Assembly: GCA_019693395.1 (NCBI GenBank)
Contig: JAAMXP010005576.1
Span: 1-55,778, forward strand
Source of the DNA: Ettlia oleoabundans
Lineage: Eukaryota > Chlorophyta > Chlorophyceae > Chlamydomonadales
Direction of reading: 5' to 3'
DNA: 55,778 nt
Position 1 is the first letter of the stretch, and every line of letters begins with the position of its first letter. Below the pieces are notes generated by a model. That model was not told where the DNA came from and ran no database searches. It was given only the letters and a program-made list of their open reading frames with translations. Made by a program: the position numbers and the translations under genes. Below, piece after piece: positions 764 to 44,683 of the stretch.

Positions 764-1681
764 TCAGAGCCAGGAGTCCAACTTGAGCATCCACACCCCT
801 TCGTCTGCGTCATAATGCACGAATATGCCATTGAGCCGTGCCGATGCCTCCCGCAGGCGCCCTCGGAAAGCGTCAACCGTGCGCCGGTCGTCCTTCTCCC
901 GCACTGCCATGCGTCGGAAGGTGAGTAGCGCTGGCTGGTTGAGGCCCTGGCCTGGTGGTGGAAGTGCCCGTGCCCTCCGTAGCATCATATTCGCCTCTCG
1001 TTGCCGTGTTAGCTTAAGAATCAACTCCTTTCGCGCAGCACTGTCGGTGCTGCGGAAAGCAAGCGGCCCGGCACTTGACCCAGCCTTTGAAGAACCATTG
1101 GCAACAGCTGCTTGGCGACCATAGATGGGAGTGTGTTGGTTGTGCCGTGGTTGTTGCTGCGGCTGCAACTGCTGTGGTTGTTGATGCTCTTGTGGGGTTG
1201 GATACAACGTCATGCGCCCAAGCTCAATGCTGACAACCTCATCAAGGTTGACAGAAAGCAGGTCAACTGCAAGAATGATGCAAATGAGGGTCGATTGTTA
1301 CGCTTGAACGCGGTTGCATTTGCCTGAGATGCAAAAGCGAATTCCACGTGCAAGGCGATGTTGACCCTGATACAGTAGATGCTAGACAACATTGAGCTAA
1401 CTTTTCTCACCAGGGTACAGGAAGCTAATTTCGCCAAACCCTTTGCGTCCAATGGTAAATTGAGGCACAACACTGAGTTGAGCATCACTCATAAGTTGAA
1501 GGCGTTGTAAACTGGGCACCTGCATTGGCATTAGCATTAGCAGCAAACTTATACTTGGATCTATTGAACTCACTTTCAAGTACCAGTCAGGATACCGCAC
1601 AGGGATTGTGGAACAGCCAACTCGAGTTTTCATGGCTCGCAATCTCACCGTAAAGTAGTCTGGAAGTGTGAGTTTGGGGGC
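764..1681 (-). other. Nup98-type autopeptidase-like domain fused to the PKS C-terminus
   Basis: Joining exons 1994-1649, 1519-1411 and 1266-764 in phase gives, in the order known for the Nup98 autoproteolytic domain: [72 protein letters not shown] and [19 protein letters not shown], then stop. A Gln-rich insertion of about 70 residues lies between MTLYP and PPPGQGLN. In cleaving Nup98 proteins the end is His-Phe with cleavage before Ser; here the aligned end reads S-W-L and stops. The first exon also encodes the end of ACP6b and an acidic linker with no stop between, so the fusion is read directly. No FG/GLFG repeats precede it. The domain binds Nup88/Nup82-type propellers or Nup96 in known nucleoporins; its role here is unknown. 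Confidence 0.85.
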
Positions 1682-4600
1682 ATTCTTGTTGAACGGTTTC
1701 AAGGCCAACGGTAAGGGTACTGTACTGCTTGGGTCGTGCTGCTCCGGCTCAGGATCAGGGGTTTCCACGTCTAGCTGACGTTGCGTACCAGGATTGCCGG
1801 CGTCCTCAGCGTCTGAAACATCCTCGCTTTGAGATATGTCGCTGCCAGCGACGTCTGCATGCTCTGGATCCCCAGCAGCTGCCAGCGCAGGAACCAGAGC
1901 GGCATCCTTAACTAGCGGTACCAACATGCCAGCAAGCTCGCTGATTGAGGGGTAGTCGAAAAGGGCTGTTACAAGAAGCTTTACGTCAAGCGCACTGCAG
2001 TACATATAGGACATGCCAATTGTTACACACTGCTTTAAGTAGCAGAAGATGGATATAGCAGAAGATGGAAAGCAATACTCCATGCCTGATCAGGTTGGAT
2101 GAGGCATACAGAACGCAGGCCCCGTTTGAGCCGCAGCAACAACATGCCAGCCATCCACACATCCTTCACAACCCATCAACCTACCAACCTGCTAAGCTCC
2201 TTCCGCAGCTCCCCGGATCCTAGAGAGTCAAGGCCAGCTGTCATAAGCGGGGTAGAGTCTGCCACCTCCACGCCGCCCAGCACAACTGCCACACACTGCC
2301 GCACCTGCAATAACGAAGCGGTCAGTGGCAACAAGCTATACTTTGGTAATGAGAAAAAGATGACATAAAAATAAAGAAAGAAATATACGCCTTTGGGCGT
2401 GGGTTGAGGAAGCCAGCGGAGGAATACTTCAGTATCGACAAACAAATCTCTGAGGTTGAGGGTCAGGTGAGCCTTGCCGCCGAGCTGTGTGTGTTACATA
2501 ACCCCGCTACTTAGGCCCTATTGGACCTGGGCAGGGGAGCCGTACCGGCCGACTCAAAACCGTGCCTGCGGGTGTAGCCGGCATCCAAGGGACACCCCTC
2601 CCTTGACCTGCCAGCAGCCAAGGGACACCCCTCCCCTGGCCTACGACCGTCCTGCCGGACACGCAACCCCTAACCTCAGTGAGGGGGGGACGTGTTGATC
2701 CTTGGCAGCTTAGGTGAGTTAGACCGACGGTGGCCAACGATTCGCAAGCGTTATGCGTTCGCACACGTGGTATGCGCTCATGTCGAGTGATGCACAGGTC
2801 AATATGTCAATGTAAACATGATGTTAGCAGTCAGGTCATATGTCAGGATTGTCAATGTGGCATTGTATGTCAGACACAGTATGTCAAGGTGTCATGATGC
2901 AAATGCATGAATGAAATGCAATGCAGTAGTGGTGATAGGTGTTGCATGGTAGATTTCGGTCTGTCGTAGGGCTGCCTAGGTATGAGCCGTTAATGCTGAC
3001 AGCTGACGCAGAGGCTGTTGGGCTGCAAGTGTAGCTGTTGTAGATTGGCAGTATTAACGATGACGCTCACCTTTACCAATAGGAGTTCAAGCTTCTTCTC
3101 GGCGGACAAAGCAACCGGTGTTTTGACCGCTCTGCTTGGTCGGCTAGAGCGCCGCTTCTTCTGCCGCCTGCGGTTCTGAACGCTTCCACTGCTACAGTCA
3201 TCTGTTGCCACTTGTGATGGCGTAGCTGTTTGCTGCATGGTAGCTGGAAGAAGTGTCCTGTCAATGAAGTCAGCTATTTCTTCGATGGATGGGTAATCAT
3301 AAATAAGCGTCGCAGGAAGATTCAACCCAGTCATGGCGGACACTTCACGCCTAATCTCCACAGCTCCTGCATTCAATTGAGGCTTTGAAGATCTCAACGG
3401 GCTACATACGGGGTCCATATTGTATTTTACGTTGCGGTTAAGCAGACTATAAACACAAACAGCAAGAAGCATAGTTGGGCAGATACACCAGGGATTGCTG
3501 ACTTGATGCCAGCACTTGCCTATGGAATCCAGGCCTGCAGATTGCAGGGGCTCCGCATCGTCGACAATCTTTCCCACAGCATGAGCAACAAGCGAAGATA
3601 GAGCCTTCTTGAGGTATGCGGTGCGTTCCAATATGGGCAAATTGCGCCAGGAGGGCAGATCTTGCAAAGTTGCATTGCTTGCGCTGACTGAGTTCAGATC
3701 ATGGCCTTGCTTGATGGAGCCGCCCTTGTGTACGGTCACTGCTACACTGGCATCAGGCAGAATAGCATCAGCTGCTTGGGTGCTGTGTGTTGTTTTTGCT
3801 GTTGCTGCCACAACTGCAACCTCTGAGTAGAAAGGCTTATCTGGCCTGCCGTCCACCAGTAGTCGCTCCCAAACAAAGCTGGCAGCCACAATGGAGCCGC
3901 TGCCTGCTGCCACAGACAACATGACTCCGGTCTGTAAGGCCACCAGTCCCGCTGCAGGCTGGATAGCTGTGATGCCGACCTTGCTGAGCCTGGCCGCCAC
4001 CACACGATCTGCTGCTGCCATTCCCGCTCCGCCCCAAGCTCCCCATGCAATGCTAATGGATGTCAGCCCCTGATGCATCCAGCTCTGGGCCATGCCATCC
4101 AGCATGGCGTTGCCAGCTGCATAATTGGTTTGACCGGCGCTGCCCAATGTGGAGGCAATGCTGCCAAACAGCTGCACGGCACTGACGGGAGCTGCCAATG
4201 CCAAGCTCTCTTGTAGGCGATGGGCAGCAGCTGCCTTTGGAGCCATGACGAGCCGCAGGCTGCCTGCTGTTTGGTTTGCGAGGATAGCATCCTGCATGTG
4301 CATACAGAAGGGGGAGATGGTGGTCGAGGTTCAAGCTATTCTCCATTGACAGTGTGGCAGAGCTTTGGCACTACATCTGCTTGTACAACAGCAGGCATGG
4401 CAGGAGCTGCGGCTATGCAGCAATTGTAAGGGGATTCATGGCTGTGTCGCAGCTCTGTGTCCCATGCCACAAAACTTACCTTCAGCACCCCTGCCGCATG
4501 AAGCAAGTTGCTAATTCTGCTGCCACTCTTGTGCAAGGTGTGTGCCAGTACCGCCACGTCAGCAGTGACAGCGGAGTCACACTTGGCCACCGTCAGTACT

Positions 4601-7600
4601 GCTGAGCTGGGAACATATGCGCAAGCTTGACGCCAACTGGTGCCCACGCCTGCCTCCAATGCTGCCAAATCAAGGCTGCGGCCAAGCAACACAATGTGCC
4701 GGGTGTTATGGCTGACGCCTGCCAGCTGATGCCTGGCAATCAGCAAGCCCAGCGCTCCCAGGCCGCCGCTGATCACAGCTGCACCAGGCTGGGCGGCCTG
4801 TAAAATGGAGGCGTAATCGCCAGCACCGCAGGCAGCTGGCCGCAGAATTGGCGCCATGTAAGCGCCTGCTGCCGAGCAAGGCCCAAAAACGTCTCTTGGC
4901 AGCGAAGGCACGGCAGCCGCTGGTGTCAACTGAGCTGCGGATGGCAGCATGGAGAGGCTGCTGCTGTGAGACCAATGCAGTTCACGGGCATCCAGCGCTG
5001 CAACCTTAACCATGCTTTGCAAAATGTGCTGCCTCTGGGCAGCATTGCCGCCTGGTTTGCTCATACCGCCAGCCTGAGGCAGGCAGTGATCACCGAATGT
5101 GTGTAAGGCAACAGCCGAGTCCGGTTGCAACAAGGTCACAGCCTGCAACATGCCCAAAAGGTAACAGCGACATTCACGACTGTGAGAGGGGTTGGCAAGG
5201 TGGGAGGGTACGGCTCAACAGAGTGCTTGGCGCATTTGAGAGTTGCTGCCACATGCGGCTTTCTCCTTGCAACCGTAGCAGAGCTGGCTGCCTATTCTTA
5301 CAGGAACATGAGCGTCAGGGCAGCAAAGAACCGAGAGCGGGACGCCCTACTCACTTCCTGCATAATGGCCAGGGCGGCAGCCGCATACGCCGCAACGCAG
5401 GTGTTGTGCATCTGCCAGAGCCCGGCACCGCCACCAAGCCACCAGCTTGCGCCCGCGACAGAACGGGGCTTGGAGTTTGGCACAGCGGAAACGGCGGGGG
5501 CGCTGCTGTATGCCTGCCATTCAACCATGTATAACAGCTGATTACCAGCTGCAGCCAGCGCCGCCGAGGACGCGGCGGTCACAACATTTGGGACCGCTTT
5601 TGCCATCAACCCGCCGAGCTTGACCTTGCAGCCGGCATTGTGCCCCCCAGTCCAGCGGATGTTGTTCATGGCTGACAGGTCTTCTGCGCTGATGCTGACG
5701 GACTCAGCACCAGCCCAGCCAGCACACGTCATGCCTACACGAAAGCAAGAGAAGAGGTGGCACTGGGATGGGTCGCTTGTGGTGGTAGTGATGGATGGTG
5801 AAAATGGAGGGGTGCAAAACAAGCGTGGACCGCACTTGTAGTTGCTATGGTTTCTACATATCAATCCTGCTACAGGCATCGGGGATGCACAATGTCACCA
5901 CCCCATGCAAATCGTTCAACACTAAGCAACGCTTGCCTGGCTCTGGGATCGACAATATGCCTGCTGCTACCGGCACGCGAGTGACAATGATGGGTGTGCC
6001 AGCAGCCGGCACAGGAGCCAGGTGGATGCATGCATCAAACATCCCAGGATGCAAGCGATAGCTGCAACAGAACGGATGATCAACAGCATGGTAAATGGGG
6101 GGCGGGTGCATGGGTGACCATAGCATCGAAGCCAGCATAGCATGCACCCGTGCTGCCAGAACCAAAGGCCCACTCACCCAGCAGCGTCTTCATTGTTTCC
6201 ATCAATAACAGCTATATTGCTGCCATCCGCGGCTTTGCTATCTTGCTTGCACAGCCACCAAAGGGCAGCTGCAATAGACCTGGGCTGCGAGGCTGCTCCA
6301 GAGGGGTTTATTGGTCTCCAAGGCAGGAAAGCGGAGAGCCCATGCAAGTGTACCGCATGCCTACCGCTCTGTACCTCCAGACCGCCATGCTGGCTGTCCA
6401 CCGAGCAGCGCAGTCTCAGTTTTGACCTACTACTGCTGCTTTCAATTGGCAGAAAACAGGGCACCATGATGGACAAGGAGCTGAGCACTGGTGCCAGGCT
6501 GGAAGTCATGCTGCCGTCAGCGGGAATACACACATGTACAGCAACCGCAGCCATCTCAAACATGGCAGCGCCAGGCAGCATTGGCCTGCCTTGCACGCTG
6601 TGGTCACACAGCCAAGCCAGCCTGCTGCTGGACACATCAGCCGCACAGTCCACCAGCTTGCTGCCAGCTCCAGCACTCAGTCGCAAAGAAGCAAGGGAGA
6701 TGAGGGGATGAAGGGTGGGGGCTGGCCAGAAGTAAGTCCGATGCCAGGTCAGCAATGCATGGCCACTGGCCGTGACATCCTCCTGCCTCGCGCTGCTGCT
6801 GTCAGCTGCCGACAGCAGAGCGTGCGCATTGACGCCGCTCATGCCAAAGGAACTGGTGCCTGCCATGCTGGAGCTAACAACATGTGCCGCTGTGCTGAGC
6901 TGGCGGCTGGCTGCTGCTGCCAGGCTGCGCTTTCCTCTCCAGTCTGAGAGCGCTGCCGACACATACGGGTTGATTTCCCGCAGGTTGACAATGGGTGCCA
7001 GAAGCTGTTGCTGCAACCCAAGTGCTGCAAGCAGCGTTCCAGACAGGCCCGCTGTGCCCTCCGTGTGGCCGTAGCAGCTCTTGCTGCTGACAACTGCCAG
7101 CACCCTGGCTTGCCTGCTTCCTGCACCTAGCGATGAAGCGAGCGCGCCCACTTCGATAGGGTCGCCCAGCGGGGTGCCAGTGCCGTGAAGGGACACACAT
7201 GCCACCCACTCCGGCAGAGCACCTGCTGCCAGCAAAGCATCCCGAACCAGCATAGACTGAGCTGGGCCGTTGGGGGCTGTCAGGCTGCTGCTGCGCCCAT
7301 CCTGGTTCACGGCACTGCTATGCACGTAGGCCAGCACCCTGCGAGTGGCGGATGTGCTGGGTACAATGTCGGCACGCTGCAGCATGCCCACCGCAACTGC
7401 CTCGCCACGCCCATATCCATCTGCTGAGGCTTCAAAGGTTTTGCAACGCCCCAAGGGTGATAGGGCTTGGAGCAGGCAAATGCGTGCGGTGGTCTGCAAC
7501 GGGTGGATGTGCAGTCAGACGTTCAGTGAGCAGGCCAGGGGGCAGGCAGGTGGGCAGGCTAACGAGCAACAAGGAGGCAGGTTAATCCAACCAGCAGTTT

Positions 7601-40600: not shown

Positions 40601-43600
40601 AGAGTCAACGTGAAGGCCCAAAACAAGGAGACAACTTCCATCTGCCGTCCTTCCTACCTCCGGCCATCCAGCGGGATTGCTGCCAGGCTGGTGTGGGCAA
40701 AGATGCTCTGGGAAGTGCGCAGGCGGCGGCCGTCAACTGCACCAAAGGAATAATACATTTCGGGATAAGAAAACTGCACCCAAGTTAGAATGCATTTGTG
40801 GGTGAAGCATGGGGAAAGCTGCCAGTAGAAGCAAGTTGGCTCCCTGGATGGCAAGGCCCAACCGTGGTAAATATTCTTTGAGGGTTACGGTATCCTGCAA
40901 CCCACTGACCAAGACAAACGCTGATCGCTGAATGCGCTAAAGTAGAGAATCAAAGCAACAGGCACCTCACCTATGGATGTGCGCCGCACATCAACTGAGT
41001 CTGCTGTGCGACGCACACTGGATCTGCGCCGCCCAAAGCCGCCGGATACGCCGGGTGCGCTGCCGCCTGATAGCGCCGCTGCCGCTGCTGCTGCCGCACA
41101 GTTATCTCGCTCTGCCTGATCAAGAGTGGAGGCGCGGCGGCTGAGCATGGAAGCGCGGCGGCTGGGCACAGTGGGCACCTGCGCATTCAATATATTATTC
41201 CCCGTGCAACTTGGGCATGCCTAGCAATGTACTGGTGTAGAAGCATGCTGCGCATGGCATAGCGTGGGCATGCAGGGATCATATGGCTCGTCATTGCCGC
41301 ACATACACTCCCAGCGTTCTTCCGATTTCTTCCGATGAACGGTGTCAGCAGTGCACTTGCGGTACCAACAATGCCCCGAAAAGCGACTTGCCTGAGAGGC
41401 GAGGATGTAGGCACATAGAGCCTCCACAGATGGGTAGTCAAAGAGCACGGTGGAGGGCAGCACCACCCCAAGCGCCTCCGACACCAGGCTGCAGCAGAGA
41501 CATGAAGAGCGGCAAAGCCCGGCTGGTGTTAAGAAAGCGCAGGGCTGGATGTAAGCGCAGCGTGGACCTCCAACCCAGTCCTATTGATGCGTTTCTTCAT
41601 TCAGAAAGCAGCGCTGCTCGTGTGCTCTTCCCACCTTGCCAGCTTCAGCATGTCAAGTGAATCCAAGCCAGCATCCATGAGGGGGGTTGCAGTGGTGAAG
41701 ATTTCGGCTGTAGAAGCACCAAGGAATGGAAAATTTGCACAATGGAGTGCAGCGCTGTAGCATGCAGACAGCAGGTAGGCTTGATAGACCAACAAAGCAG
41801 TCTAGGCAAAACCAGAAGGCCAGCTGTCCCAGAGAGCCACCACAGGCACTTGCCAGCTCCCAGCAGGTGCTAAACCACTGGCGCACTGCCGCAGAAAGGA
41901 GCAGCAACATGTGCTCACTTGGGAAGCCAGCCGCTTCCATATAGCCAACCACCACAGCAGTGGCCTCTTCTAGCAGGTGCTCTGCTGCTGCAGCCTCATC
42001 AGCTGGAGTGATGGGGGCTTCATCCATCTTAATCACACTCAGCCGCCGTGCCGCCTTGACCACTGCCGCTACTGAGCCGGGTCCGCGATTGGAGTCTGGG
42101 GAATGAGAGGCAGCATCAGAGGCGGCGACATCGGGGGCTGGGGTGGCAAGGTCCAGCATGTTGGTGGCCACAGCGCTGGCCAGGGCTCCCAGGCTGCAGC
42201 CAGCTGCAAAGTGCAGGGAACGCTGCTGCCACGTCATAGCCTGCTGGTTATTACTGCTGCCAGCCGTGGACTCGAGAGTAGGGCATGCAGTTGTGGTGAT
42301 GTGTAGCAGCGGAGCTGAGGGCAATCCGCTGGCAGACGGCAGGCCCTGGCCCATTGCTGCATCGGCAGCCACACCAGCCTGTTGCTGCATGGCTCGCTGC
42401 AGCAGCAGGTTCCCCTGCATCACAACCACCTCTGGATAGCTGGCATCCGCTAGCAGCTGCTGCAGTGCATAGCTGGCAAGTGCCGCAAAAATTTCGGTGC
42501 ACTGTTCCATTTCAGGGAACACAGCTGCCAGCTGCAGCTCGAGATGCAATATCTGCCCCTGGGCTTGAGACTCTGGCTGTCTGACTGCATTACTCGTCGC
42601 TTCAGACGGCTGCATAAGAAGGGCAGCTGCCGGGAAGCCGCCAATTTCGGCCACAAAGCAAAACGGTGCCCGCAACCCGGGCAGCAGCTGCTGCTGGATC
42701 TGCTGCATGCTGAGCGCGCTGCGCTGCAGGCGCCCGCCCAAAGCATACGACTGCAGCCAGTACACGTGCTCCCCGTCTGAATCACGGCCTGCAAGAAAAA
42801 AATATGTAATACACACGTGGGCCCAGGGACAAAAATTACAAGTCAAGGCGTGCATGCATATTACGAAAAAGCAGTGGCACAGGCAGCACGCGATGCAACA
42901 CAGCTGCCACTTACAAATAATTGCTGGCAGTCTCAACGCATAGCTTCAACACACAGGGATTTGCAGCAGAAGTCTACAGCTCACCGTTATGGATGTTGAA
43001 GGGAATGGCATCAAGGTGCAGCAACAACATGTGACATTTGCCATCGCCACGGGCCAGGTGGCAGCCTGACCCGGGGCGTGGCACAAGTCCCGCTGCCGCG
43101 GCAACAGCCAACAGCTCAGCAGCAGACATCAGAGACGAGCCGCCCCAGGAGGCGTCCTCGGCAGCTGCAGCAGCGGTGGCAGCCGCTGCTGTTGCTCCCT
43201 CTGTCGCTCCCTGTTCGCTGGACTCTGTCTCTAGTTGTTCCTGCGATTCTGCTACTGGCAGCAGGCTACCCTCTTCTGCAGCATGGCCAGCATCGTCATC
43301 TGACGAAGCTTTTTCAGCTTCTTCAGTCCCCTCCGCCACCATCGACAGCATTTTCCTGAGCTGGCAGGCCCACAGCGGCCGTACCGGGGCCACAGAGGCA
43401 GCACCCTCAGCCGTGGGAGTGGCAGCTCCCATGCCGCTGTTGCTGCAGCTGGCAGCCCTTTGCGCAGGCAGATGCCATGAGTCACCGCTGCTGCTGCTGG
43501 TGGTGCTAGCGCTCCCACTGCTTCGCCTGCTGCTGTTGCAGGCAATGGAGTCAAGAGTGATGATGCCATGTTGTGCTGCCAGCTCAGACCAGCCCTGGAG

Positions 43601-44683
43601 GCATGCCGATCCATCGCCAGCGTGCGACACGCAGTCAGCCTGCATACCAGAGGGAGCAAAGACAGCCAGGCAGGGAAGCTTCTCGATCGCAATTTAGGCC
43701 GCAAAGAAGCAACCGCAGCTCCGCCCATGCAAGCCTCAGATTCGATGCGGCACGTTGGGCTGGTGGGACCCGTTGAGGGGCAGCTCACCAGGCTGATCAG
43801 GAACACAAAGTCTTGCAGGTTGCTGATTCCAGCCTCCTGGGCAGCCGCCAGCACCTCCACGGGCTCATGTGCAGGGGCCGCCACTGCAGCAGCAGCCAAC
43901 GCATTTCGGCACATGTGGAGTATCATAGCAACCTGGCCACATTATGATGAGGCAAGCGCTGGATTTGGAATAGGTTCTTGTAGACTGTCGTGTATACTGT
44001 AGCAATCCCTGAGGGCACCAACGGTGTGTTCTGTATAGCCAGTAGTTTGTGTAGCACACAGTACCTGCTGTGTGCGGCGTGCCCTCCGCCGCCAACTGCT
44101 GCGAAACGGCGGCGAGGATGTGGGCATCTGTGTGTGCCACAAGCAGCCTCACACTACTGCTCCTGCACCTTCATATTGGGGGTTGCCAACCAGGACGTAA
44201 ATACCACCAGCAGGGAGCCGCAATAATACCCTTGCTTATGCCCATTCGGCTGTCCCGCAGGAACAGGAGGCAGTTGACAGCATTAACGGCAGGTTCCTTA
44301 AATCTTCCATAAAGGTCAGGCCGCTGCAGTCATGCTATTTTCGCTGCTTTTAACGCAAGCGGCATTGTGCGTGTAACGACTTGCCTGTGCAACACGGCGC
44401 GCCAGCACGCAGCAGCTGTCGCCGCGACTGCTTCGGCGCTGCCACCGGAAGCGCAACATAGCGCCAAGCCTGCAGGCTGGGCAACACTGCCATCAAAAAG
44501 CTGCTGAAGGTATCCGACAAGGTGAGGAAGCAGAGGTCGTTGGGCCGTCATGTGTTTGGAATGTGCCGCCCCTGCATAGCGCATGTGAGGGTGCGACAAA
44601 GGGCGGCTGGTGATGTGCCATGCTTGGCCACATGATACCGAGGTCGTGCGGCAGACCCTGCCGTCATGCAAGCTTGCCCACAC
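764..44683 (-). CDS. Giant six-module type I polyketide synthase with C-terminal Nup98-autopeptidase-like domain
   Basis: This is a multi-domain PKS that extends an acyl chain by repeated decarboxylative condensation and graded reduction. It has about 60 exons and on the order of 10,000 residues. The domain order is N-terminal unknown region, ACP0, linker, then six modules: KS-(decayed DH)-KR-ACP-ACP; KS-DH-KR-ACP-ACP; KS-DH-KR-ACP-ACP; KS-DH-ER-KR-ACP; KS-DH-KR-ACP-ACP; KS-DH-KR-ACP-ACP; then a Nup98-type domain. The start is either M at 44683 or M at 44551. I prefer 44551, because its first ten exons (44551-44385, 44156-44065, 43883-43789, 43639-42985, 42788-41919, 41707-41635, 41488-41392, 41178-40971, 40736-40658, 40519-40278) join in phase. 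The last four exons (2304-2189, 1994-1649, 1519-1411, 1266-764) also join in phase to the stop. ACP-to-KS transitions lie inside single exons for modules 1/2, 2/3, 3/4, 4/5 and 5/6, so this is one gene rather than a cluster. No AT, methyltransferase or thioesterase was seen. Chlorophytes are known to carry such PKSs with acyltransferases in trans. Internal exon edges not listed here are approximate. Confidence 0.9.
1920..3110 (-). other. ACP6b, last carrier domain
   Basis: Helix I is split (KKLELLLVK | [14 protein letters not shown]). [20 protein letters not shown] follows, with serine codon TCT at 2226-2224. The next exon (1994-1649) gives [20 protein letters not shown]. It is the terminal carrier, so the finished chain should sit here. 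No thioesterase or reductase follows. Confidence 0.87.
2305..3070 (-). other. Large last-but-three intron with repeats
   Basis: This 766-nt intron separates ...LELLLVK from [11 protein letters not shown] inside ACP6b and splices in phase 0. It holds an 18-bp direct repeat (CCAAGGGACACCCCTCCC at 2585 and 2618). A region at about 2790-2900 is full of ATGTCA-like words. No coding signature was seen. Confidence 0.7.
3240..3625 (-). other. ACP6a
   Basis: [27 protein letters not shown] (serine present), a GC-AG intron (donor at 3520-3519), then [20 protein letters not shown] and [15 protein letters not shown] basic stretch ([18 protein letters not shown]) follows in the same exon and could act as a nuclear localisation signal. 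Confidence 0.86.
4020..5540 (-). other. Module 6 ketoreductase (KR6)
   Basis: Starts at [14 protein letters not shown] (about 5520). [19 protein letters not shown] binds NADPH (about 4735-4790). HAAGVLK|DAILANQ is split by an intron. Lys lies in VMAPKAAA, Ser in [11 protein letters not shown], and Tyr/Asn in [11 protein letters not shown]. Catalytic residues are present, with small changes from the other KRs (FGS for FSS, AAGN for AAAN). Confidence 0.86.
5930..6760 (-). other. Module 6 dehydratase (DH6)
   Basis: [20 protein letters not shown] (about 6555-6615) is a full HxxxGxxxxP. After an intron the second motif is [15 protein letters not shown] (about 6010-6060). Both motifs are complete, so it is predicted active. 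Confidence 0.84.
6800..8980 (-). other. Module 6 ketosynthase (KS6)
   Basis: [17 protein letters not shown] at the start, [30 protein letters not shown], Cys in [15 protein letters not shown] (about 7785-7825), [70 protein letters not shown] and [14 protein letters not shown]. The triad is complete. Lineage B. Confidence 0.9.
9050..9420 (-). other. ACP5b
   Basis: [20 protein letters not shown] and QPLMEV, an intron, then [20 protein letters not shown] and [13 protein letters not shown]. The serine is present. The intron position is shared with ACP2a and ACP2b. The exon runs on into KS6. Confidence 0.88.
9590..9960 (-). other. ACP5a
   Basis: [29 protein letters not shown] (serine present), then [19 protein letters not shown] and [13 protein letters not shown]. 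The intron is at DSLG|AGELR. The usual VELR reads GELR. Confidence 0.86.
10200..11340 (-). other. Module 5 ketoreductase (KR5)
   Basis: [18 protein letters not shown] binds NADPH (about 10710-10765). [14 protein letters not shown] follows, then Lys in VLAPKFNG, Ser in [11 protein letters not shown], and Tyr/Asn in [11 protein letters not shown]. All catalytic residues are present. The structural half lacks the YxVxWQA start seen in modules 1-4 and 6 and reads [12 protein letters not shown] there. Confidence 0.87.
11480..12440 (-). other. Module 5 dehydratase (DH5) with Gly-to-Asn change and an intron in the catalytic motif
   Basis: YIWEHQ ends one exon and [16 protein letters not shown] opens the next (about 12330 and 12150). 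Joined, the motif is HxxxNxxxxP, with Asn for Gly as in DH4. The second motif, [15 protein letters not shown] (about 11630-11670), is intact. Activity is uncertain. Confidence 0.75.
12500..14700 (-). other. Module 5 ketosynthase (KS5)
   Basis: The N-terminal GxxCRxPG signature is poorly kept. Present are [26 protein letters not shown], Cys in [15 protein letters not shown] (about 13620-13665), [73 protein letters not shown] and [14 protein letters not shown]. The triad is complete. Lineage A, with the HGT|GT phase-1 intron. Confidence 0.9.
13707..13925. repeat. Minisatellite-like tandem repeat in a KS5 intron
   Basis: GCTGGCCTG(G/T)GGGACAT begins units at 13760, 13838 and 13898, each followed by TCATTTTG/GCATTTTG and, in the first two, a GCAATGCATTGGGTAGA tail. 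A partial copy precedes them near 13710. Spacing is 78 and 60 bp. Confidence 0.8.
14740..15130 (-). other. ACP4, single carrier of module 4
   Basis: [28 protein letters not shown] (serine present), then [18 protein letters not shown] and [15 protein letters not shown]. The intron is at DSLG|AV. Module 4 is the only module with one ACP. The second exon leads into KS5 ([13 protein letters not shown]). Confidence 0.88.
15530..16260 (-). other. Module 4 ketoreductase catalytic half (KR4)
   Basis: [20 protein letters not shown] binds [19 protein letters not shown] follows, then Lys in VFAPKVAG, Ser in [11 protein letters not shown], and Tyr/Asn in [11 protein letters not shown]. All catalytic residues are present. 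Several introns interrupt the domain, unlike KR2 and KR3. Confidence 0.88.
16320..18330 (-). other. Module 4 enoylreductase (ER4), the only ER in the gene
   Basis: Medium-chain reductase family, spread over about eight exons: [15 protein letters not shown] and [64 protein letters not shown] and [26 protein letters not shown] (NADPH loop); [19 protein letters not shown] and [23 protein letters not shown]; and [10 protein letters not shown] at the C-terminus. The order and motifs match fully reducing PKS and fatty-acid-synthase ERs. Where checked, splice phases agree (for example PYR|VGDLVFG). Confidence 0.88.
17224..17310. repeat. Imperfect 34-bp direct repeat in an ER4 intron
   Basis: AGCAGAGCAATGTAGTGAGC (17224-17257) and AGCAGAGCAACGCAGTCAGC (17277-17310) continue alike through GTAWTGCATYAGCT. 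The two units are 53 bp apart, start to start. Confidence 0.75.
19030..19950 (-). other. Module 4 dehydratase (DH4) with Gly-to-Asn change
   Basis: The first motif reads [19 protein letters not shown] (about 19730-19785), which is HxxxNxxxxP, so the usual Gly is Asn. The second motif, [15 protein letters not shown] (about 19300-19350), is intact. His and Asp are both present, so activity is possible. DH5 has the same substitution. YQVEWQA (about 18985) then opens the structural KR half, ahead of the ER. Confidence 0.75.
19950..22400 (-). other. Module 4 ketosynthase (KS4)
   Basis: [33 protein letters not shown], Cys in [15 protein letters not shown] (about 21215-21260), [47 protein letters not shown] and [14 protein letters not shown]. 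The triad is complete. The NQDGRSSS segment found in the other modules reads NTAGRSSG. One intron uses a GC donor (TTCCAG|GCAAGC, donor at 21411-21410) just before [13 protein letters not shown]. Confidence 0.9.
20542..20601. repeat. 24-bp tandem repeat, three copies, in a KS4 intron
   Basis: TAGCAACAGCTA recurs at 20542, 20566 and 20590 with GAGGAA spacers. It lies in the intron that splits DPI|EVGA of KS4. Confidence 0.8.
22420..22850 (-). other. ACP3b
   Basis: [19 protein letters not shown], then [13 protein letters not shown] (serine present), an intron, then [19 protein letters not shown]. The same exon as the second half continues into KS4 ([24 protein letters not shown]). Confidence 0.87.
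22930..23410 (-). other. ACP3a
   Basis: [17 protein letters not shown], then [15 protein letters not shown] (serine present), an intron, then [20 protein letters not shown]. The intron directly after VELR is shared with ACP3b and ACP0 only. Confidence 0.87.
23630..24780 (-). other. Module 3 ketoreductase (KR3)
   Basis: Starts at [29 protein letters not shown] binds [19 protein letters not shown] follows, then Lys in VVAAPK, Ser in [10 protein letters not shown], and Tyr/Asn in [11 protein letters not shown]. All catalytic residues are present. Confidence 0.88.
25180..25990 (-). other. Module 3 dehydratase (DH3)
   Basis: [15 protein letters not shown] (about 25795-25840) is a full HxxxGxxxxP, and [15 protein letters not shown] (about 25320-25370) carries the second motif Asp and His. 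Predicted active. Confidence 0.85.
25990..28290 (-). other. Module 3 ketosynthase (KS3)
   Basis: Starts with [10 protein letters not shown]. Further segments are [31 protein letters not shown], Cys in [15 protein letters not shown] (about 27075-27120), [53 protein letters not shown] and [14 protein letters not shown]. The triad is complete. There is no intron in HGTGT. Lineage B. Confidence 0.9.
26881..27027. repeat. Direct repeat in a KS3 intron
   Basis: CCTGGCAGCGCTCAGGCAGC occurs at 26881 and 26991, each followed by a related (G/A)(C/T)TCCGA(T/C)AGG tail. The sequences upstream of the two copies are also similar (AGAGAGCAATG... and AGACAGCGATG...). The duplicated unit is roughly 110 bp. 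Confidence 0.75.
28430..28870 (-). other. ACP2b
   Basis: [19 protein letters not shown], then [19 protein letters not shown] and [14 protein letters not shown]. The serine is present. The intron position is identical to ACP2a, indicating recent tandem duplication. The same exon runs on into the N-terminus of KS3 ([15 protein letters not shown]). Confidence 0.88.
28960..29420 (-). other. ACP2a
   Basis: [20 protein letters not shown] ends one exon, and [20 protein letters not shown] with [14 protein letters not shown] opens the next. The serine is present. The intron sits between LMEV and QAGLDS, at the same place as in ACP2b and ACP5b. Confidence 0.88.
29700..30855 (-). other. Module 2 ketoreductase (KR2)
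   Basis: Starts at [17 protein letters not shown] loop [16 protein letters not shown], then [14 protein letters not shown], Lys in VFAPK, Ser in [11 protein letters not shown], and Tyr/Asn in [11 protein letters not shown]. All catalytic residues are present. [13 protein letters not shown] follows, as in the other KRs. Confidence 0.88.
30860..31790 (-). other. Module 2 dehydratase (DH2)
   Basis: The first catalytic motif [14 protein letters not shown] (about 31640-31680) is a full HxxxGxxxxP. The second is [15 protein letters not shown] (about 31155-31195) with the Asp and His in place. This DH is predicted to be active and to form an enoyl intermediate with KR2. Confidence 0.85.
31996..34430 (-). 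other. Module 2 ketosynthase (KS2)
   Basis: About nine exons. Recognisable segments are [29 protein letters not shown], the active-site Cys in [14 protein letters not shown] (about 33395-33430), [76 protein letters not shown] and [12 protein letters not shown]. The catalytic triad is complete. Lineage A, with the HGT|GT phase-1 intron. Confidence 0.9.
34545..34907 (-). other. ACP1b, active second carrier of module 1
   Basis: Reads [19 protein letters not shown], then [15 protein letters not shown], then [15 protein letters not shown]. The serine is present in GLDSLS. The intron falls just before the GLDS motif, unlike in ACP1a. The same exon continues into the first residues of KS2 ([10 protein letters not shown]), which ties modules 1 and 2 together. 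Confidence 0.87.
34970..35360 (-). other. ACP1a, carrier domain with Pro in place of the phosphopantetheine Ser
   Basis: Helix I is [16 protein letters not shown]. The attachment motif reads VQAGLDPLG, with codon CCC on the minus strand (35258-35256) where every other ACP in this gene has a serine codon. The next exon continues [18 protein letters not shown] and [13 protein letters not shown]. The fold signature is intact but the domain cannot be pantetheinylated as read. The intron at DPLG|AV matches ACP4, ACP5a and ACP6a. Confidence 0.85.
35600..36890 (-). other. Module 1 ketoreductase (KR1)
   Basis: The structural half begins at YTTVWQA (about 36880). The NADPH-binding loop is [18 protein letters not shown] (about 36290-36330). 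[11 protein letters not shown] follows, with the Asp typical of B-type KRs. The catalytic residues are Lys in VFAPK, Ser in [11 protein letters not shown], and Tyr and Asn in [11 protein letters not shown]. All are present. An intron follows LQLQG, before [15 protein letters not shown]. Confidence 0.88.
36890..37860 (-). other. Module 1 decayed dehydratase-like region
   Basis: About 320 residues lie between KS1 and KR1 where modules 2-6 carry a DH. No HxxxGxxxxP and no DxxxH/Q motif can be found. The stretch is low-complexity, rich in Ala, Ser and Gln, with a serine/glycine run near 37080-37130. Either the DH has been lost or it has diverged beyond recognition, so module 1 should leave a beta-hydroxyl. 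Confidence 0.6.
37860..40519 (-). other. Module 1 ketosynthase (KS1)
   Basis: The KS is spread over about nine exons. The N-terminal GxxCRxPG signature is degenerate ([14 protein letters not shown]). After it come [18 protein letters not shown], the active-site Cys in [12 protein letters not shown] (about 39600-39640), ADGYVRLEA, the first His in SMHGTGT, the second His in [12 protein letters not shown], and [14 protein letters not shown]. The catalytic Cys-His-His is therefore complete. A phase-1 intron splits HGT|GT, as in KS2 and KS5. It belongs to KS lineage A. Confidence 0.88.
39769..39861. repeat. 31-bp tandem repeat, three copies, in a KS1 intron
   Basis: Three imperfect units read close to CCAGCACGCACAGCAGAGG plus a 12-base tail, starting near 39769, 39800 and 39831. 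They sit in the intron between the LDPQQR exon and the active-site-Cys exon of KS1. Confidence 0.75.
40658..41178 (-). other. Basic, serine-rich linker between ACP0 and KS1 with repeated RRxS motifs
   Basis: Exons 8 and 9 encode about 95 residues with no fold signature. They contain [16 protein letters not shown], an alanine run, [14 protein letters not shown] and VRRTS. The exon 9-10 junction (ag+g) creates a further RRAS. R-R-x-S/T is the consensus of basophilic kinases of the PKA/CaMK type. No other inter-domain linker read in this protein has this composition. Confidence 0.75.
41392..41990 (-). other. ACP0, carrier domain of the presumed loading region
   Basis: Helix I (about [20 protein letters not shown]) ends exon 5. 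Exon 6 holds [17 protein letters not shown], with the phosphopantetheine-attachment serine in GLDSLD. Exon 7 supplies [15 protein letters not shown], the usual helix III-IV signature. The intron after LKLA matches the intron position in ACP3a and ACP3b. Exon 7 ends at a GC donor (41391-41390). Confidence 0.85.
41919..44683 (-). other. PKS N-terminal region of unknown family (exons 1-5)
   Basis: About 625 residues precede the first ACP. The first part (exons 1-3 and the start of exon 4) reads as an alpha/beta-like stretch with segments such as [37 protein letters not shown] and [14 protein letters not shown] low-complexity acidic and alanine-rich spacer follows in exon 4 (about 43130-43500). 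Exon 5 carries a second compact segment ([17 protein letters not shown] ... [17 protein letters not shown]). I cannot assign either part to adenylation, acyltransferase, GNAT or methyltransferase families by eye. Its position directly before ACP0 suggests a starter-loading or priming function. Exon 1 ends at a GC donor. Confidence 0.6.

Follow-up and report, generated by a model that had tools for sequence, protein, structure and literature searches.

Contig JAAMXP010005576.1 (C1182) of the green alga Ettlia oleoabundans, analyzed here in its entirety (the window; 55,778 bases of a 32.9-Mb genome), encodes a giant modular type I polyketide synthase (PKS) that terminates in a domain of the Nup98 autoproteolytic domain (APD) family. 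To our knowledge, the APD is a hallmark of Nup98 and is otherwise known only from nucleoporins. By profile, and by fold in a relative, the domain on the synthase is assigned to the Nup98 APD family; it does not form part of a Nup98, and its motifs indicate that it has lost the cleavage site of the autopeptidase. Judged from the translated sequences, the fusion of PKS and APD is real and conserved in related sequences. The role that we favor, and to which we give an even chance, is that the domain docks the C-terminus of the synthase to a partner specific to the synthase.

Synthase tail and identity of its C-terminal domain

The exon structure was worked out for the end of the synthase only, which lies on the minus strand throughout. 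Six exons (4291-3520, 3366-3071, 2304-2189, 1994-1649, 1519-1411 and 1266-764) join in phase to yield 713 codons and a single final stop; the other two frames of the joined exons contain 21 and 30 stops. The joined tail comprises, in this order, the end of a ketoreductase (KR), an acyl carrier protein (ACP) with the motif GLDSIG, a basic linker, a second ACP with the motif GLDSLG, a 79-residue acidic linker, the APD and the C-terminal residues LDSWL. A first-pass annotation of this DNA had proposed that exon 1994-1649 alone carries the end of the second ACP (ACP6b), the acidic linker and the start of the APD with no stop between them, and that the following two exons join to it in phase. Translation bore out both points: the exon is one open frame with GT-AG borders, the introns between the last three exons likewise show GT...AG borders, and the three exons form a single frame of 318 residues that runs to the stop at 764. 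The GC content by codon position is alike on either side of the junction (0.65/0.49/0.55 before and 0.67/0.45/0.55 after). The linker between ACP6b and the APD contains 16 Asp and Glu residues, 4 Lys and Arg residues and no Met; it therefore offers no ATG for a separate protein starting in the linker.

Comparison of the spliced end with Pfam family PF04096, a check suggested in the first-pass annotation, yielded an E-value of 1.5e-23 and a score of 84 bits (cut-off 28.4), and both later Nup98 signatures that had been listed follow in the expected order. Single pieces scored lower: 33.5 bits (E 5.6e-8) for the open frame 764-1297 alone, which covers the last exon (764-1266; second half of the APD and stop codon, ending LDSWL); 29 bits, above the cut-off, for exon 1411-1519 within the APD in the scan of the alga's own genome; 28.0 bits, marginally below it, for the stretch 2089-1397; and 25.7 bits, also below, for the piece 779-970 in a six-frame genome scan. 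The best match by sequence in the PDB was a Nup98-Nup96 APD (E 3.1e-12). Two relatives introduced below, P0001 and P0004, reached 101.8 and 102.5 bits against PF04096, and the structure check, also suggested earlier, matched the APD fold over ~140 residues in a pLDDT-scored structure of one relative.

The APD of the window is split by a Q-rich insert of ~79 residues (~1198-962, minus strand) between TLYP and PPPGQGLN, which is missing in P0001 and P0004 and shorter in P0002, P0003 and P0006. Two introns interrupt its coding sequence. The one at 1267-1410 has 144 bases (GTGAGAAA...TTGCAG). The other, at 1520-1648, has 129 bases, a multiple of three, and no in-frame stop; the open frame 2089-1397 reads through it, and its retention would add 43 residues to the APD and keep the frame open.

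The autopeptidase cleavage site of the Nup98 APD (family S59) is HFS or HFT with sequence behind it. HFS is absent in the window, where the chain ends LDSWL, and in all 26 match proteins (P0001-P0026), none of which has HF in its last 30 residues. The position of the Nup98 cleavage-site F is occupied by F or W in 24 of the 26, with the chain stopping 0-4 residues later; the exceptions are P0022, which has C, and P0024, which has A and continues for 13 residues. In P0007 and P0019 the final FS is not preceded by His, and the HFT of P0012 lies elsewhere, not near the end. The earlier label 'autopeptidase-like' thus holds for the fold and fails for the cleavage site.

PF04096 matched five exons in the genome, at two loci, namely the synthase contig and contig C1174. 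The minus strand of C1174 encodes many FG repeats over small exons, an APD ending VEHFSKYG with sequence behind it, and a Nup96 match (PF12110, E 3.2e-29); by these features, the locus is an ordinary Nup98-96 precursor gene. The synthase APD is preceded by KR-ACP-ACP and no FG repeats. A PF04096 match in an alga hence need not mark a Nup98.

The open frame of the synthase terminates in the APD, not in a thioesterase (TE). In scans carried out exon by exon, neither the acyltransferase (AT) family PF00698 nor the TE family PF00975 matched on the synthase contig; the sole PF00698 match in the genome lies on C350, PF00975 matched on C360 and C90, and each family was found in 10 of 14 control genomes. 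By these exon-wise scans and its domain content, the green-algal synthase is a giant modular PKS of type I with no AT or TE detected.

Recurrence of the fusion and conserved residues

A protein search with the joined end returned six proteins, among which P0001 (470 residues) and P0004 (439 residues) hold an ACP and a complete APD, and P0002, P0003 and P0006 are half domains. For a second search, a profile was built from P0001, P0004 and the window, and the best 120 of 125 matches were listed. Among these listed matches, at least 21 proteins (P0001, P0004, P0007-P0021 and P0023-P0026) carry both PF04096 and PF00550, at least 15 of them together with a KR; the other 99 are without PF04096, most being PKS pieces that are either bacterial or unnamed. 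Since the query held both the ACP and the APD, the number of matches is no census. Searching other PKS ends for the domain, as had been suggested, was productive, and the earlier statement that no PKS with this domain was known stands for the open literature searched and falls for the sequence databases, which contain the combination repeatedly.

The closest relatives that carry a name are from Micractinium, an affinity that makes a trebouxiophyte source likely. All relatives were used as deposited, and the named P0025 may be a spliced model. In P0001, P0007, P0016 and P0017, intron-like stretches were recognized by eye at or before the KR, as expected of an unspliced reading; because of these stretches elsewhere, the ACP and the APD of the four proteins are probably joined without an intron. 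The gene model of P0022 ('polyketide synthase', Micractinium conductrix), one of the 99 matches without PF04096, seems to omit the APD's first half, an omission that may conceal the domain from Pfam; the second half is discernible by eye, with no Pfam call. P0005 (180 residues, on a 2,636-base contig) has a formamidase N-terminus (PF03069) in frame with the second half of a PKS-type APD and looks chimeric. Neither viral contigs (10 pattern matches) nor genomes of bacteria and archaea (27 pattern matches) yielded a confirmed relative; as neither collection is algal, these results speak only against a prokaryotic or viral source.

To compare residues, the 22 PKS-borne APDs (21 relatives and the window) were aligned with the alga's own Nup98 and Xenopus Nup98. 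The sequences were trimmed at the motif FLYPV, which is present in all 21 relatives, so that none was lost. P0002, P0003, P0005, P0006 and P0022 were excluded from the alignment and from the fusion count as incomplete or chimeric; the His near the end, described below, is present by eye in all five. At 70% identity, the 22 APDs fall into 11 groups. The relatives' APDs are 47-61% identical to that of the window, which in turn shares 33% identity with the alga's own Nup98 and 34% with the frog protein. Twenty-seven columns are invariant across the 21 relatives, every one of them in the APD; one subfamily (P0015-P0017 and P0026) has diverged to GLDRPALL. No PKS-borne APD of the alignment departs from E41, Y46 or H198, three positions at which both Nup98s differ, and L161 is found in 21 of the 22. 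His198, Asp200 and Lys209 are invariant (22/22) and, given the alternation of residues along the strand, are expected to share one face next to the C-terminus. Asp200 is shared with the alga's own Nup98 and Lys209 with Xenopus Nup98, so that of these three the His alone is special.

Proposed role of the domain and alternatives

In Nup98, the folded and already cut APD grips the Nup96 tail or the Nup88 propeller. The synthase carries an APD of this type on a flexible acidic linker behind the last of two tandem ACPs, at the position expected of a release domain and devoid of the old cleavage motif. As the chain ends near the Nup98 cleavage point, the domain would be 'mature' from the outset and available to bind a partner in trans. 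We infer that it takes no part in chemistry and acts in docking at the C-terminus, for which a gripping surface freed from FG repeats and Nup96 would be ready-made. Candidate partners are a trans-acting enzyme (an AT or a release enzyme) or another subunit. A partner specific to the synthase is favored because the PKS-borne APDs share invariant residues that are absent from the two Nup98s compared. Its conservation at the end of giant synthases means that a docking fold of the nuclear pore was taken up into algal metabolism; the domain offers a direct way to trace the places and partners of these poorly understood synthases, and the PKS tool set may gain a docking domain of a new type.

The C-terminal docking domains of bacterial modular PKSs are short helical elements after the last ACP. 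The algal arrangement would resemble them in its small folded element after the last ACP, its flexible linker and the lack of a TE on the synthase, but the element here is a domain of ~140 residues (plus the insert) with the APD fold of the nuclear pore. The likeness to the C-terminal autoproteolytic domain of Nup98/Nup145N (PF04096, peptidase family S59) extends to profile, order of motifs, fold over ~140 residues in a relative and chain end near the cleavage point. In contrast to that domain, the synthase APD has no HFS site, no Nup96 behind it and ACPs instead of FG repeats in front, and some residues invariant in the PKS set differ from those of the two Nup98s compared. The animal APD binds the flexible Nup96 N-terminus or the propeller of Nup88 (PMC11148069).

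The domain content of giant AT-less synthases has been surveyed in algae (PMC4661987, PMC7073580). As far as the main texts of these surveys go, the chlorophyte enzymes (PKS1 of Chlamydomonas and the Chlorella variabilis PKSs) share with the present synthase the many modules of ketosynthase (KS), dehydratase (DH), KR and ACP on one strand, the lack of an AT match and the doubled ACPs, but differ in that TE or hydrolase-like domains are named at their ends. The words 'nucleoporin' and 'nup98' occur 0 times in these main texts, and 'polyketide' does not occur in the available text of a review on the evolution of the nuclear pore complex (PMC8421043). Open literature joining PKS with Nup98 or nucleoporin, or indexed under the domain's own names, contained nothing relevant on the fusion. 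Within this open literature, the fusion appears undescribed, while sequences with both Pfam domains called are already public.

Several points weigh against the docking proposal. The partner, expression and localisation that it implies are predictions from sequence. The outgroup behind the 'PKS-specific' residues is thin, consisting of two Nup98s. A catalytic role could yet be indicated by the invariant His close to the end. An AT or TE domain split by introns could have escaped the exon-by-exon scans. Finally, among 94 candidates for a giant annotated protein (~5,500-17,500 residues) with the domain, none was significant.

Tentatively, the domain might instead keep the old partner of Nup98 and anchor the synthase at the nuclear envelope or its pores, next to the endoplasmic reticulum (ER). 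The synthase APD shows no greater identity to the Nup98 of the alga than to that of the frog, and some residues invariant among PKS-borne APDs occur in neither, which both speak against this possibility; the division between the two kinds of partner, drawn from residue pattern and identities with two Nup98s only, is soft. A Nup88 family scan of the genome gave no match and, as it matched nowhere, is uninformative. It is slightly more doubtful still that a captured nuclear-pore anchor makes the megasynthase a resident of the pore or envelope, with the polyketide made and handed over at that membrane.

That the domain is a mere folded end-cap or a partnerless vestige is improbable: the large Q-rich insert is tolerated and one subfamily has diverged to GLDRPALL, yet 27 columns, all in the APD, are invariant over 21 relatives whose APDs retain 47-61% identity to that of the window. 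A little less probable again is that the APD replaces the missing TE and aids release or hand-over of the finished chain. Its terminal place on the synthase corresponds to that of the TE match in the genome's second giant PKS, the synthase contig itself has no such match, and the His198, Asp200 and Lys209 set invariant in all 22 APDs would be grouped beside the C-terminus. However, HFS is lost, and Asp200 and Lys209 each recur in one of the Nup98s; among roles for the domain, chain release is the one that looks least likely, since the old active-site motif has not retained its residues. A separate APD gene or transcript, with the fusion as a gene-model error, is very improbable: the fusion was read from genomic DNA and the relatives were taken as deposited, but a single exon holds the ACP end and the APD start, the linker has no Met, and at least 21 relatives carry both domains in one protein, some with the intron-like stretches expected of an unspliced reading.

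Remaining synthase and other PKS loci

Upstream of the APD, all on the minus strand, the first half of ACP6b with the motif GLDSLG is encoded by exon 2189-2304, placed by its frame join, and is separated from ACP6a by an intron of 766 bases (2305-3070; GTGAGCGT...TTGCAG). The second half of ACP6a and the basic linker lie on exon 3071-3366 (PF00550 E 6e-5 on the open frame 2990-4330; frame join). A GC-AG intron inside ACP6a (3367-3519; GCAAGTGC...ATGCAG) is followed upstream by the exon with the KR end and the first half of ACP6a (3520-4291), GLDSIG lying at its border; joining the two exons restores the frame. The latter exon is in phase with all those downstream and gave PF08659 with E 2.4e-21 on the open frame 2990-4330; its 5′ border at 4291 is our reading. 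The first part of the KR of the last module occupies an open frame at 4339-5214 (PF08659 E 7e-9).

The rest of the synthase (6174-42945, minus strand), mapped by Pfam scans of chosen open frames and family scans of the genome, consists of a probable loading ACP and six modules; the upper coordinate is the end of an open frame. KS pieces were located at six places (near 38.4-40.2k, 32.2k, 26.2k, 20.3-22.4k, 12.7-13.2k and 7.0-7.3k), together with DH, KR and ACP pieces. Characteristic of modular type I PKSs are the repeated KS, KR and ACP, the DTACSS in the first KS, and GLDSIG and GLDSLG in the last two ACPs. The probable loading ACP (41604-41801) has the motif GLDSLD and only E 0.0042 for PF00550. 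Long open frames upstream of it (41656-43941, minus strand) had no Pfam match at E 1 and possibly encode an unrecognized loading domain.

The only PF00698 match in the genome (C350:15189-15458) is a candidate trans loader of AT-less synthases. The second giant PKS (C360:37300-110800) has KS at about ten places, ACPs and a ligase-like motif, YTSGTTGVPKG (by eye), at its start, and a TE match behind the last KS; it resembles the published PKS1 type. The idea that the APD-bearing synthase passes its chain to this PKS is weakened by the latter's own ligase-like loading part and TE match. No KS-first partner was found, the reading of the other KS-bearing contigs covering parts of C134 and C30. Further KS pieces lie on contigs C134, C30, C1089, C909 and C392; the examined part of C30 is largely stop-free in every frame, like a masked run.
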